Below, one piece after another: positions 56,250-60,211 of a DNA stretch of 64,000 bases. The stretch lies in assembly GCA_947490615.1 (NCBI GenBank), contig CANLHK010000003.1, positions 124,001-188,000 of the forward strand. The letters run 5' to 3'. The notes below the pieces were generated by a model. The model was given only the letters and a program-made list of their open reading frames with translations, made no database searches and had not been told where the DNA came from. Both the position numbers and the translations under genes were made by a program. The DNA comes from Planctomycetaceae bacterium. GTDB lineage: Bacteria > Planctomycetota > Phycisphaerae > Phycisphaerales > SM1A02. Position 1 is the first letter of the stretch, and each line of letters starts with the position of its first letter.

Positions 56250-56720
56250 TCATTCAGCCTTACCCGAGCTGGAGTCGTAAACCCATCGATCGCCCGCGCG
56301 GCCGAAGTCGAGGACCTCGCCAGCCTTGAAGAAGAGACCGAGCTCTCGGGCGGCAGCTTCGGGGCTATCGGAGCCATGGATCAGGTTGAACGAGTTCGAC
56401 ACGCCGAAGTCGCCGCGGATGGTGCCGGCAGCGGCCTTCGAGCCAAAGGTCGCACCCATCATCGAACGAGCAATGGTGATCGCGCCGACGCCGCGGACGG
56501 CCATCACGAGCACGGGTGAGCTCGTCATGAAGCCGACGAGGCCGTTGTAGAAGCCCTTGCCTTGATGATCCTTGTAGTGCGTCGCGGCGAGCTCGGGCGA
56601 AATCACAGTCAGCTTGGCGCCGACGATTTGCAGGCCCTTCTCTTCGAAGCGCGTGATGATCCGTCCCATGAGCCCGCGTTGGACGGCGTCGGGCTTCAGG
56701 ATGATGAGCGTGGTTTCCAT
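56250..56720 (-). CDS. ndk: nucleoside diphosphate kinase
   Basis: This enzyme transfers phosphate between nucleoside tri- and diphosphates. The ATG at 56720 has GGAG upstream and gives 156 residues, slightly longer than the usual 140-150. The catalytic His is His115 in NLIHGSDSPEAA. METTLIILKPDAVQRGL and GTIRGDFG are also typical. The substrate-loop section before TIRGDF is altered (FGSKAAAG for NPxxAxPG). It is divergent from the topoisomerase VI genes. Confidence 0.94.
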   Translation of the reverse strand: METTLIILKPDAVQRGLMGRIITRFEEKGLQIVGAKLTVISPELAATHYKDHQGKGFYNGLVGFMTSSPVLVMAVRGVGAITIARSMMGATFGSKAAAGTIRGDFGVSNSFNLIHGSDSPEAAARELGLFFKAGEVLDFGRAGDRWVYDSSSGKAE

Positions 56721-56881: not shown

Positions 56882-58981
56882 ATGGAGAGCGCAGTGAAGG
56901 AACGGAATCCACGGTCGGAGAAGCGACGAGGCGCGACCGCTGAAGAGATGGCCGCGCGTCAGAAGGATGTCTCGGTCAGCGAGTTCTTCGTGAAGAACCG
57001 CCATCTCCTAGGGTTTGACAACGCGCGCAAGGCGCTGCTAACGACGGTGAAAGAGGCCGTCGACAACGCCCTCGATGCATGTGAAGAAGCGGGGATCCTG
57101 CCCGATTTGGCCGTGGTGATCGAAGACCTCGATCCACGAAGGCCCGCGACTGCCAAGAGCTCGCGCTACCGCGTGACCGTCATCGACAACGGACCTGGCA
57201 TCGTTCGTAAGCAGGTGGAGAACATCTTTGGTCGCCTGCTGTACGGCTCGAAGTTCCATCGCTTGAAGATGTCGCGCGGCCAGCAGGGGATCGGCATCTC
57301 CGCCGCAGGCATGAACGGTCTCATCACCACGGGTAAGCCGATGGTGATTCACACGAAGCCCAACGCCAAAGAGCGAGCGCATCACATTGAGCTCGCCATG
57401 AACACCAAGAGCAATCGCGCGGAAGTGACGCTCGACAAGGAGACGAAGGACTTTCCTCCCGAGCGATTCCGCGCTCTGTCGGCGGGCACGCGACAGCTCG
57501 CGCAGGAAGGCGTGTTTCTTTCGGCTGAGAGTTTCGCCACGGGCACGAGCGTTTCGATCGAGCTCGAAGGGAAGTACCAACGCGGTCGCGGTTCGGTCGA
57601 CGAGTTCCTCGAGTTGACGGCGATTGCCAATCCGCATGCGCGCATCGTGTTTGTTCCGCCCTCGCGTGTGGCGCAGGACGACGCGGATGACTTACTCCCA
57701 GGCACCAGCGCTGCGGTCGCGCAGGATGTTCGATCGGATGCGCCCGCACAGACCTCGGAAACGGGCGGCGTCGTCGTGTTTCCGCGCGGCGTCAACGAGC
57801 TCCCGCCTGAGACCAAGGAGATTCAGCCGCACCCAAAGGGCATTGAGCTCGGCATTCTTCTGCAGATGCTGAAGGACTATCAAGCCAAGAACAAGTCGGG
57901 GACGCTCTACGACTTCCTCCAAGAGGACTTCTGTCGTGTGAGTGCCACGACAGCCGCCAAGTTCTGCAAGACCATCGGCGTGACCAGTCGCACCAAGGTC
58001 AGCGACATCGAACCTCCGCAGGCCGAATTGCTCTTCAAAGCGTTCGGCGAAGAGAAGCTCGCGCCTCCGCCGACCGACTGCCTGGCACCCATCGGCGTGC
58101 GACAAATGCTCGCGGGCATGCTGAAGGGCGTGAAGGCTGAGTTCTACGCAGCTTCGACGCGCGAGGCCGAGGTCTACCGCGGTCGTCCATTTCAGATTGA
58201 GGCCGCGATCGCCTTCGGTGGTGATCTCCCCGGCGATCAGGCGAGCCGCGTGATTCGCTTTGCGAATCGCGTTCCGTTGCTCTTTCAGCAAAGCGCTTGC
58301 TCGTCGTTCAAGGCCGTCACGGAGACTCCGTGGAAGAACTACGCGATGCAACAGCCGCGCGCGAGTCTTCCGGTGGGACCGCTCGTCGTGATGATCCACA
58401 TGGCCAGCGTGTGGGTTCCGTTCACCAGCGAGTCCAAAGAAGCCATCGCCGACTACGACGAGATCCGTAAAGAGATGCGACTCGCGCTCATGGAGTGTGG
58501 GCGCAAGCTTGGCGTGTATCTCCGCAAACGGCAGAAGATGCGACGCGAAGGTGAGCGGCGCGATGTCTTTGAGCGCTACATCGGTGAGATCGCCAAGGCG
58601 CTCCACGCCATCACAGGCACCGAGGCCAAGGCGCTCTACGACGCGCTGCTCGAACAGGCGCGCGCCAAGACGGCCGTCGCCGATCAGGAACTCGATGAAG
58701 ATGGTCGCGTGAAGAGGCAGCAAGAGGCCGACTCCGATGACGAGGGCGTCATCATCATCGACAGTGCCATCGCGCCCGTGGAAGTCGCCGCGCCGATTGA
58801 AGCGCCGCAGTTTGAGACGCACAAGAGTGCTGCGCCGTCACGCACTCGCGCGACGCCGCCAGCGATCAAGACGCGCAAGGATCTTGACGCGCGTGCGACG
58901 ACGAAGAGTGCTTCACCAGCGAGTCCGCCACCAAAGCCTCGCTCCAAACCGCTCGACCGCGACGATCCCCGACTGTTCTGA
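56882..58981 (+). CDS. top6B: DNA topoisomerase VI subunit B
   Basis: This is the GHKL ATPase subunit of a type IIB topoisomerase. The ATG at 56882 has GGAG 8 nt upstream and gives 699 residues; an ATG at 56852 is possible. The Bergerat-fold motifs are the N-box KEAVDNALDACEEAG (Glu58, Asn62), IDNGPGI (residues 101-107) and GQQGIGIS (133-140). The H2TH region (about 385-430) and a transducer domain with TPWKNYAMQQPR follow. The C-terminal 80 residues are a charged Pro/Ala/Ser-rich tail not typical of archaeal proteins. It precedes the A subunit by 57 nt. Bacterial Topo VI is uncommon; the likely role is decatenation. Confidence 0.95.
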   Translation: MESAVKERNPRSEKRRGATAEEMAARQKDVSVSEFFVKNRHLLGFDNARKALLTTVKEAVDNALDACEEAGILPDLAVVIEDLDPRRPATAKSSRYRVTVIDNGPGIVRKQVENIFGRLLYGSKFHRLKMSRGQQGIGISAAGMNGLITTGKPMVIHTKPNAKERAHHIELAMNTKSNRAEVTLDKETKDFPPERFRALSAGTRQLAQEGVFLSAESFATGTSVSIELEGKYQRGRGSVDEFLELTAIANPHARIVFVPPSRVAQDDADDLLPGTSAAVAQDVRSDAPAQTSETGGVVVFPRGVNELPPETKEIQPHPKGIELGILLQMLKDYQAKNKSGTLYDFLQEDFCRVSATTAAKFCKTIGVTSRTKVSDIEPPQAELLFKAFGEEKLAPPPTDCLAPIGVRQMLAGMLKGVKAEFYAASTREAEVYRGRPFQIEAAIAFGGDLPGDQASRVIRFANRVPLLFQQSACSSFKAVTETPWKNYAMQQPRASLPVGPLVVMIHMASVWVPFTSESKEAIADYDEIRKEMRLALMECGRKLGVYLRKRQKMRREGERRDVFERYIGEIAKALHAITGTEAKALYDALLEQARAKTAVADQELDEDGRVKRQQEADSDDEGVIIIDSAIAPVEVAAPIEAPQFETHKSAAPSRTRATPPAIKTRKDLDARATTKSASPASPPPKPRSKPLDRDDPRLF

Positions 58982-59038
58982 ATCCACGGCGTTTCCACAG
59001 CCGCGCGCGACACCAGAGTTTGAAGGACACGCATCATC

Positions 59039-60211
59039 ATGGCTAAGAAGAACGAGAAAGCACCAGCAGAATCTCCTCAGAGCTCCAAGGGACCCTCGGG
59101 CGCTGCGGGTCGCGTGAAAGAGCGTGACGCTAAGACGCAGAAGAAGATCGAAGCGCTGGCGCAGAACCTCGTGAAGCGCACGCTCTCGGGTCGCGAGCCG
59201 ATCGTTGAGATTCCGCTGCGCACGAAGTCGAACACCAACTGGAACAAGAAGTCGGGCATCCTCGAAATGGGTGGCGCCATCGCGGAGCGCCCGCTCTTTG
59301 ACTTGAAGTCGGCCAAGCAGTTCATGCAGACGACGCTGCACGCGAGCACGATTCGCGATCTCATCGATGCGCAGAAGACCAGCAGCCTTCGTGGTGTCTA
59401 CTACAAGGCCAAGCACACCGTCGCGGGAACGAAGGAGAACACCTTCGACAACCAGGAGGAGTCCGACCCGATCCTCGAGGACCTCGAGGTCACGCTCGGG
59501 TCGACCCGCGAAGAGCTCCATGTCTTTGCCGAAAACCGTGGCGCGATGGTGGGGAACATCACCATCATTGATCGCGGCGATGAGATCAATTGTCGGCGCA
59601 TGGGTTCGGGTGGATACTCGATGCCTTCGATCGTGGAGCCCGACATCATTGAGTTCCGCAAGTGTGAGGCGAAGTTCGTGCTGCATGTCGAGAAAGGCAC
59701 GGTCTGGGCCCGCTTCAACGAAGACCGCTTCTGGGAGAAGCACAACTGCATTCTCACCCACGGAGGCGGACAAGCCGCGCGCGGATGCAGGCGTCTTCTT
59801 CAGCGACTGAATCAGGAGCTTGGCCTTCCCGTCATCTGTTTGCTCGACAACGATCCGTACGGACACTACATCTACAGCGTCATCAAGCACGGCTCGATCT
59901 CGCTCGCGTTTGAGTCGTCGCGCCTGGCGATTCCGCAGGCGAAATACCTTGGCATTCGCGCGAAGGACTTCCGTCAGTGTGGCCTCGATGACGCGGTCAA
60001 GATCGATCTCACCGACAACGACATCAAGCGTGCTGGCGAAATCGCTGCGTACCCGTGGTTCGAATCGCACAAGGGCTGGCAGAAAGAAATCGGCGCGCTC
60101 CTGACCAACGGCTTCAAGATGGAAGTCGAGTCGCTCATCACCAAGGACATCTCCTATGTCACCGAGGTGTATGTCCCCGAGCGTCTCAAGGCGAAGGACT
60201 GGTTGGAGTAG
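59039..60211 (+). CDS. top6A: DNA topoisomerase VI subunit A (Spo11-like)
   Basis: This is the DNA-cleaving subunit of topoisomerase VI. The 390-residue protein has the winged-helix active-site motif TSSLRGVYYKAKHT, where Tyr122 is the expected nucleophile (Tyr121 is next to it). The Toprim metal site is VEKGT (Glu218) and LLDNDPYGHYIY (Asp270, Asp272). Downstream segments (YLGIRAKDFRQCGLD and LTDNDIKRAGEI) match the family. The N-terminal 30 residues are a Lys/Ser-rich extension. The gene pair B-A in this order supports a functional heterotetramer. Its 3' end meets the histidine kinase gene 9 nt later. Confidence 0.95.
   Translation: MAKKNEKAPAESPQSSKGPSGAAGRVKERDAKTQKKIEALAQNLVKRTLSGREPIVEIPLRTKSNTNWNKKSGILEMGGAIAERPLFDLKSAKQFMQTTLHASTIRDLIDAQKTSSLRGVYYKAKHTVAGTKENTFDNQEESDPILEDLEVTLGSTREELHVFAENRGAMVGNITIIDRGDEINCRRMGSGGYSMPSIVEPDIIEFRKCEAKFVLHVEKGTVWARFNEDRFWEKHNCILTHGGGQAARGCRRLLQRLNQELGLPVICLLDNDPYGHYIYSVIKHGSISLAFESSRLAIPQAKYLGIRAKDFRQCGLDDAVKIDLTDNDIKRAGEIAAYPWFESHKGWQKEIGALLTNGFKMEVESLITKDISYVTEVYVPERLKAKDWLE

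Follow-up and report, generated by a model that had tools for sequence, protein, structure and literature searches.

A 64,000-nucleotide stretch of a planctomycete genome (GCA_947490615.1, contig CANLHK010000003.1, positions 124,001 to 188,000; G000:C3:124001-188000 in our numbering), hereafter the window, carries adjacent genes for both subunits of DNA topoisomerase VI (topo VI), Top6B and Top6A. The host genome, G000, is 3.26 Mb in 28 contigs and ~97% complete. Because the host has gyrase and no detectable topoisomerase IV (topo IV), topo VI most likely does the topo IV job and is thereby the host's decatenase. We favor a joint reading in which topo VI acts as a decatenase in the place of topo IV, while short Leu-Phe (LF) or QxxLF motifs at the termini of Top6B dock on the sliding clamp, DnaN. 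We regard this combination as probable, although well short of certain. Here, "the order" refers to the host's own order (Phycisphaerales).

The enzyme is encoded by two intact reading frames on the forward strand. Top6B (56882..58981; 699 aa) comprises a GHKL ATPase, H2TH, and transducer followed by a disordered tail, and Top6A (59039..60211; 390 aa) begins 57 nt downstream. The N-termini of relatives back the ATG at 56882 as the start of Top6B. Profile matches of Top6B included PRK04184 (592.6 bits) and top6b (438.2 bits) in NCBIfam, and transducer (9.4e-56) and HATPase_c in Pfam, while Top6A matched PRK04342.1-2 (495.5 bits), TOP6A-Spo11_Toprim (1.4e-54), TP6A_N, and Topo_VI_alpha. Solved topo VI structures were matched in sequence at 1.1e-73 (2zbk_A) and 2.7e-124 (2q2e_B). 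The predicted model of Top6B aligned to Methanosarcina mazei 9o0g_B with a Z of 34.7 over 495 residues (model residues 30-614), compared to at most 19.5 for the next families, GyrB and MutL; the H2TH is covered as part of this alignment. The Top6A model aligned to 1d3y_B with a Z of 23.2 over 209 residues (residues 165-390). It was poor around Tyr122 (pLDDT < 50 at residues 94-136), so the assignment of this residue rests on sequence.

Alignment with the archaeal motifs placed the catalytic Tyr122 of Top6A at 59402..59404, Toprim Glu218 at 59690..59692, and Toprim Asp270 and Asp272, within LLDNDPYG, at 59846..59854, all on the forward strand. These four residues were unchanged across 16 aligned Top6A sequences (the window and 15 relatives in the order). 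The GHKL motifs of Top6B (57053..57301, forward strand) are EAVDNALDA (residue 58), DNGPGI (102), and GQQGIGIS (133), with core residues that were invariant or nearly so in an alignment of relatives. The transducer motif SKEAIA (58433..58450, forward strand; residues 518-523) contains K519, likewise invariant, which we take to be the switch lysine. Judged by sequence and predicted fold, the window encodes a complete type IIB enzyme, topo VI, with both subunits present and their active-site residues intact. The original prediction of a complete topo VI unit at 56882-60211 was thus confirmed by family, sequence, and fold matches, and its catalytic motifs lie at exactly the residue numbers it gave. 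In Spo11 and topo VIB-like systems, the GHKL ATP site of the B partner is degenerate or missing, an identity at odds with the intact and conserved GHKL motifs of Top6B.

Type II topoisomerases of the host and its phylum

The original prediction had placed topo VI beside both gyrase and topo IV in this host, which the genome does not support. It encodes a single PF00521 protein, having the GyrA box QGRGGKG, and a single PF00204 protein (914-aa open frame), which has the size of a GyrB. A search of the ~97% complete genome found no further member of either family, that is, no ParC or ParE, and returned the gyrase pair only. Topo VI had also been described as only sporadic in bacteria. This is wrong for the phylum, where Top6B was present in 191 of the 392 genomes sampled, and for the order, where Top6A was present in 240 of 301 genomes.

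We considered how topo VI is distributed relative to the number of PF00521 genes. To this end, we used the 217 near-complete genomes of the phylum sample (≥ 90% complete, ≤ 5% contaminated). A single PF00521 gene was found in 112 of the 122 genomes with topo VI, and at least two were found in 62 of the 95 genomes without it. All 23 order genomes with topo VI in the phylum sample had a single PF00521 gene, including three (G034, G095, and G368) that are assembled into one or two contigs. In the larger set of 301 order genomes, two PF00521 matches occurred in 11 that were positive for Top6A; in 7 of these, the best E-values reached no better than 1e-45 to 1e-93, as expected when a contig break divides one gene.

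One family of the order, f4, lacks topo VI altogether. Top6A was absent from 51 of 51 f4 genomes (no f4 row among the 240 matches, by eye), 43 of which had at least two PF00521 genes, and the other 8 were at most 83% complete. All seven f4 genomes that we inspected encode a GyrA with the box and a ParC-like protein without it, the latter in its own clade, as well as a GyrB and a ParE-like protein of 641-659 aa. The remaining 10 order genomes without Top6A were scattered over other families, and some are fragmented; one of them, G364, has Top6B. Within the order, Top6A and ParC/ParE are nearly exclusive of one another, which is most simply explained if both enzymes do one job and the one replaces the other. 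Families share ancestry, and the counts should not be taken as independent events.

Four genomes of the sample had an unusual complement. G019, G025, G100, and G203 (loci L086, L089, L088, and L087, respectively) encode topo VI, gyrase, and a short, diverged PF00521 protein (637-708 aa) that lacks the GyrA box, keeps the catalytic RY, and lies near a diverged PF00204 protein. From their sequences, these pairs are a possible third type II topoisomerase. Three type II enzymes per genome are reported only for Pseudomonadota and Terrabacteria in the accessible text of PMC11302465.

Conserved motifs at the termini of Top6B

Beyond its canonical end, the Top6B of the window continues for approximately residues 599-699 (58676..58978, forward strand) at low model confidence (pLDDT 38-67 per 10-residue block). 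The tail closes with DDPRLF (58961..58978, forward strand), which follows the QxxLF clamp-binding pattern except for the Gln. The added charged tail that had been predicted for the B subunit is real and common to the order, where its median length is 91 residues and its linker is rich in Ala, Lys, Asp, and Pro without being conserved. Outside the order, most planctomycete Top6B proteins end a few residues past the canonical end. The exceptions are a few related families with shorter or longer tails: ~45-159 residues in f53, f55, f67, and f79 (L263, L264, L267, L270, and L275) and 35-39 residues in f62. Top6A carries a basic N-terminal extension (59039..59110, forward strand; approximately residues 1-24) beginning with MAKK, which was invariant in 16 of 16 order sequences. 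The predicted extension therefore exists, but its Lys-rich character is only mild in the window species and is strong in many relatives. Lys-rich tails were common on both subunits. In family f63 (L003, L023, L025, and L028), Top6B has a very Lys/Ala/Arg-rich, histone-H1-like N-terminal extension, as does Top6A where readable (L023, L025, and L028).

We merged 89 order tails into 85 unique sequences, leaving out the truncated L181. Loci L119-L198 were taken as order members from their titles and a Top6A identity of at least 61%, although some titles differ (Planctomycetaceae, Kuenenia, Singulisphaera). LF was present in 83 of the 85 tails, compared to a mean of 7.0 and a maximum of 15 across 1000 shuffles, and in 65 of the 85 it was among the final six residues (shuffle mean 0.37, maximum 4). 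Where it was not near the end, it was mostly 18-36 residues further in, ahead of a Lys/Arg-rich end. L051 and L053 have a single LF, 74 and 84 residues before the end, and closer to the end they have QPTLL and QGILL. Two tails had no LF: L050 has QYELY and L189 nothing similar. An SSB-type C-terminal peptide is an acidic tail ending in Pro-Phe. We set this identity aside for DDPRLF, as many relatives continue past the LF (LFGG, LFEG, LFEAD).

Outside the order, the motif occurs mainly in N-terminal extensions, that is, at the opposite end of Top6B, and belongs to a second planctomycete lineage. Forms with Gln include QLDLF (L272), QMDLF (L273), QMELF (L244), QLNLF (L269), QADLF (L252 and L271), QRSLF (L261 and L262), QTTLF (L030), and QQGLF (L268), and L247 and L248 have the six-residue form QLNLAF. 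The start codons of these extensions are provisional. For a comparison of terminal regions, we took the 63 order loci and 55 others in which the two ends could both be read and told apart. Motifs of L252 and L262, which fall outside this set, were taken from the listing; the N-terminal motif of L227 is cut. The C-terminal strings of L252, L271, and L272 extend past stop codons, and the overrun contributed no motif to the counts. Within the order, LF was found in all 63 Top6B proteins (shuffle mean 6.0, maximum 14) and Q..[LM]F in 5 (mean 0.26, maximum 3). Outside the order, Q..[LM]F was found in the terminal extensions of 12 of 55 (mean 0.14, maximum 2; 500 shuffles) and LF in 17 (mean 1.2, maximum 5). 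A motif of this kind was also seen on the other subunit in one genome, G096, where L020 has QGSLF in the N-terminal extension of the Top6A frame and none was seen in its Top6B. The gyrase and topo IV families served as controls: neither Q..[LM]F nor a terminal LF was found in any of 28 GyrA/ParC proteins (last 100 residues searched) or 29 GyrB/ParE proteins (first 100 and last 60 residues searched; 29 rows of 30 loci, with L097 left out).

In the accessible text of PMC12309361, the bacterial clamp-binding consensus is QL[S/D]LF, or more broadly QxxLF, with xxxLF in DnaE3 polymerases. We used the host's own replication proteins as yardsticks. Its Y-family polymerase has QLPLF and its DnaE1 has GQENFF. 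At the same place, the DnaE1 of relatives has GQMSLFG, GQGSLFG, or GQMNFF, and that of one order member (L293) has DDFLF, without Gln; all DnaE1 motifs were read by eye. Tethering to DnaN is the best and most likely reading of the terminal Top6B motifs, going by their sequences.

In a tree of Top6B (50 of 51 rows, L257 being lost to trimming), the 22 order rows (100/100) grouped with families f53, f67, and f79 (97/88); in two of these families, the motif is C-terminal (L263 and L267). Rows whose Gln motif is N-terminal fall on the opposite side of the tree, under a weak midpoint root. With the same weak root, the Phycisphaerae-class families f6-f8 lie elsewhere, and the tree does not show the class as a single lineage. 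Since rows with C-terminal and N-terminal motifs are separated in this way, Top6B probably acquired a terminal motif on more than one occasion, at different ends.

Proposed function and its alternatives

In the proposed mechanism, topo VI would act as an A2B2 heterotetramer in which Top6B closes with ATP and traps a second duplex. Top6A would cut the first duplex via Tyr122, using Mg2+ coordinated by E218, D270, and D272, and the trapped duplex would then pass through the break. Such capture, cutting, and passage are known from archaeal topo VI, and we apply them to the planctomycete enzyme via its conserved residues and fold. The activity that defines topo VI is ATP-dependent relaxation and decatenation, with cuts that leave two-nucleotide overhangs. 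Topo VI would in this way unlink precatenanes and sister chromosomes, which is the job of topo IV. The LF motif of the Top6B tail, or the N-terminal QxxLF of the second lineage, would dock on the hydrophobic cleft of DnaN, thereby placing the enzyme on freshly copied DNA behind forks. More broadly, topo VI may have been wired into the replisome more than once in at least two planctomycete lineages, through a clamp motif at the C-terminus (the order and its relatives) or the N-terminus of Top6B, as a clamp-tethered decatenase behind the fork that replaces topo IV. We offer this wider version tentatively, as a possibility that falls somewhat short of probable.

Several observations weigh against these proposals. 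At least two PF00521 genes were present in 10 of the 122 near-complete genomes with topo VI. The order member G172 (98% complete) has no topo VI and no second PF00521 or PF00204 gene, leaving it with gyrase only, an assembly gap being possible. In the window itself, the motif (DPRLF) has no Gln where one is usual, and the first motif residue in 62 order tails with LF was Gly in 18, Asp in 12, Glu in 8, Ser in 7, and Gln in only 5. L189 has no comparable motif, and 38 of the 55 Top6B extensions outside the order lack LF; some of these carry QTTMF or six-residue forms (L031, L230, and L247-L249), and many have nothing alike. According to the accessible text of PMC12309361, E. coli clamp binding becomes weaker when the first position is altered. 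The rarity of Gln at this position in the window's own lineage is the weakest step in the case for clamp binding. Weak or modified binding by a Gln-less motif is nonetheless plausible by analogy, if not assured, because DnaE3 polymerases keep only xxxLF and exchanging Gln for Ala in an E. coli polymerase motif costs about five-fold in affinity (QADMF, 0.8 uM, to AADMF, 4.2 uM; same portion of PMC12309361).

The scarcity of Gln also bears on an alternative in which topo VI does replace topo IV as decatenase but LF binds a partner other than the clamp, such as some other protein of replication or segregation, at least for the Gln-less lineage of the order. This would fit the tendency of order tails toward an acidic residue four before the Leu and Pro two before it (Pro in 37 of 83), as well as the retention of Gln in the other clamp-type motifs of the host (QLPLF, QENFF). 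It fits less well with the textbook clamp motifs on related topo VI of other planctomycetes, with the Gln forms that exist in some order tails (QGNLF, QDSLF, QANLF, QYELY), and with Gln-less motifs on polymerases, both the xxxLF class of DnaE3 in the accessible text of PMC12309361 and the DDFLF of DnaE1 in the order. On balance, we consider a non-clamp partner unlikely, yet worth keeping in view.

Topo VI could instead be an ordinary accessory beside gyrase with no special unlinking role, its tails being generic disordered DNA-binding segments and LF their by-product. A single PF00521 gene in 33 of the 95 near-complete planctomycetes without topo VI speaks for this view and against ours, since gyrase alone is apparently enough for some planctomycetes, G172 among them, and Lys-rich tails are frequent on both subunits. 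An accessory role is at odds with the near-exclusive distribution of topo VI and ParC/ParE in the order, and with an LF that is kept in 83 of 85 tails, far above shuffles, despite an unconserved linker; we judge it improbable. It could also be argued that the host has a topo IV that was missed, its assembly being in 28 contigs and ~97% complete. Given the single PF00521 gene in 23 of 23 order topo VI genomes, three of them in one or two contigs, this is very hard to credit. The preferred reading remains a topo VI that unlinks chromosomes in topo IV's place and is held at the clamp by its terminal motifs.

Genomic setting

Divergent from top6B and outside the enzyme genes lies a reverse-strand gene (56250..56720) that, from its sequence, we take to be ndk, encoding nucleoside diphosphate kinase. 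A divergent ndk was upstream of Top6B in 32 of the 43 order loci having at least 1.8 kb upstream, and it was less than 400 bp away in 20 of the 32. Other neighbors kept among 80 loci of any length were a sigma factor (19), a histidine kinase (23), a cold-shock gene (22), and pnp (20). With these neighbors shared by a fair number of loci, the top6BA locus looks like a settled chromosomal site rather than a recent arrival. The closest titled relatives are uncultured planctomycete genomes, many labeled Phycisphaerales, with best Top6A identities of 83-84%, and a scan of contigs with Top6A matched records titled planctomycetes or uncultured bacteria. We also compared putative empty sites: the ndk regions of five f4 genomes and G172 showed neither top6 nor the window's other neighbors, and no readable scar. 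Topoisomerase VIII, described in the accessible text of PMC11302465 as a type IIB enzyme of free or integrated plasmids, is contradicted as an identity by a neighborhood of ndk and housekeeping genes common to many order genomes.

Comparison with known systems

That topo VI and topo IV alternate within a single order bears on why some bacteria retain an archaeal-type enzyme, as a natural experiment that points to a common job. If the terminal motifs bind DnaN, they would offer a concrete and cheap test of the way in which a foreign enzyme was adapted to bacterial replication, and the topo VI described here would be, to our knowledge, the first clamp-bound bacterial type II topoisomerase. In the titles and abstracts of open-licence literature, we found no earlier report of a clamp-type motif on, or clamp binding by, a bacterial type II topoisomerase, and no paper on topo VI in combination with Phycisphaer. 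The topo VI family and its occurrence in planctomycetes were already known; what is new is the conserved LF tail of Top6B and the N-terminal clamp-type motifs in the other lineage.

Archaeal topo VI (M. mazei 2q2e/9o0g and Saccharolobus shibatae 2zbk) shares with the planctomycete enzyme both subunits, the ATPase/transducer and Toprim architecture, the catalytic Tyr, the acidic residues, and the fold. Where M. mazei Top6B has an Ig-like domain, the Top6B of the window has a disordered tail ending in LF, and Top6A adds a basic N-terminal extension absent from the archaeal forms. The Ig-like domain is also absent from bacterial topo VI models in the accessible text of PMC11302465 (Allen & Maxwell 2024), which reports 17 bacterial families with topo VI, among them planctomycete families that lack topo IV. 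Those planctomycete enzymes resemble the one described here in standing beside gyrase and without topo IV. Unpublished data mentioned in that text have M. mazei topo VI complementing an E. coli parE(ts) mutant. Neither the Top6B tail nor any clamp-binding motif is mentioned there, and the alternation with ParC/ParE within the order comes from our own counts. Bacterial topo IV would share with topo VI the proposed job of unlinking daughter chromosomes. It is a type IIA enzyme from a different family, and it was seen in f4 of the same order but not in the window's host.

The proposed attachment has parallels among clamp-binding proteins. PolC (QLSLF) and DnaE (QMGLF) likewise carry short QxxLF-type motifs within flexible linkers or termini (accessible text of PMC12309361), whereas the window's motif has no Gln. 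In archaea, a pull-down with Pyrococcus abyssi NucS contained PCNA and two topo VI subunits, as given in the accessible text of PMC4929162. The bacterial clamp binders in Table 1 of PMC9690074, as far as that source was accessible, include no topoisomerase, and its PCNA binders include eukaryotic topo II alpha and topo I. Recruitment of a type II enzyme to the clamp would make the eukaryotic case a parallel, although both the enzyme family and the clamp differ.

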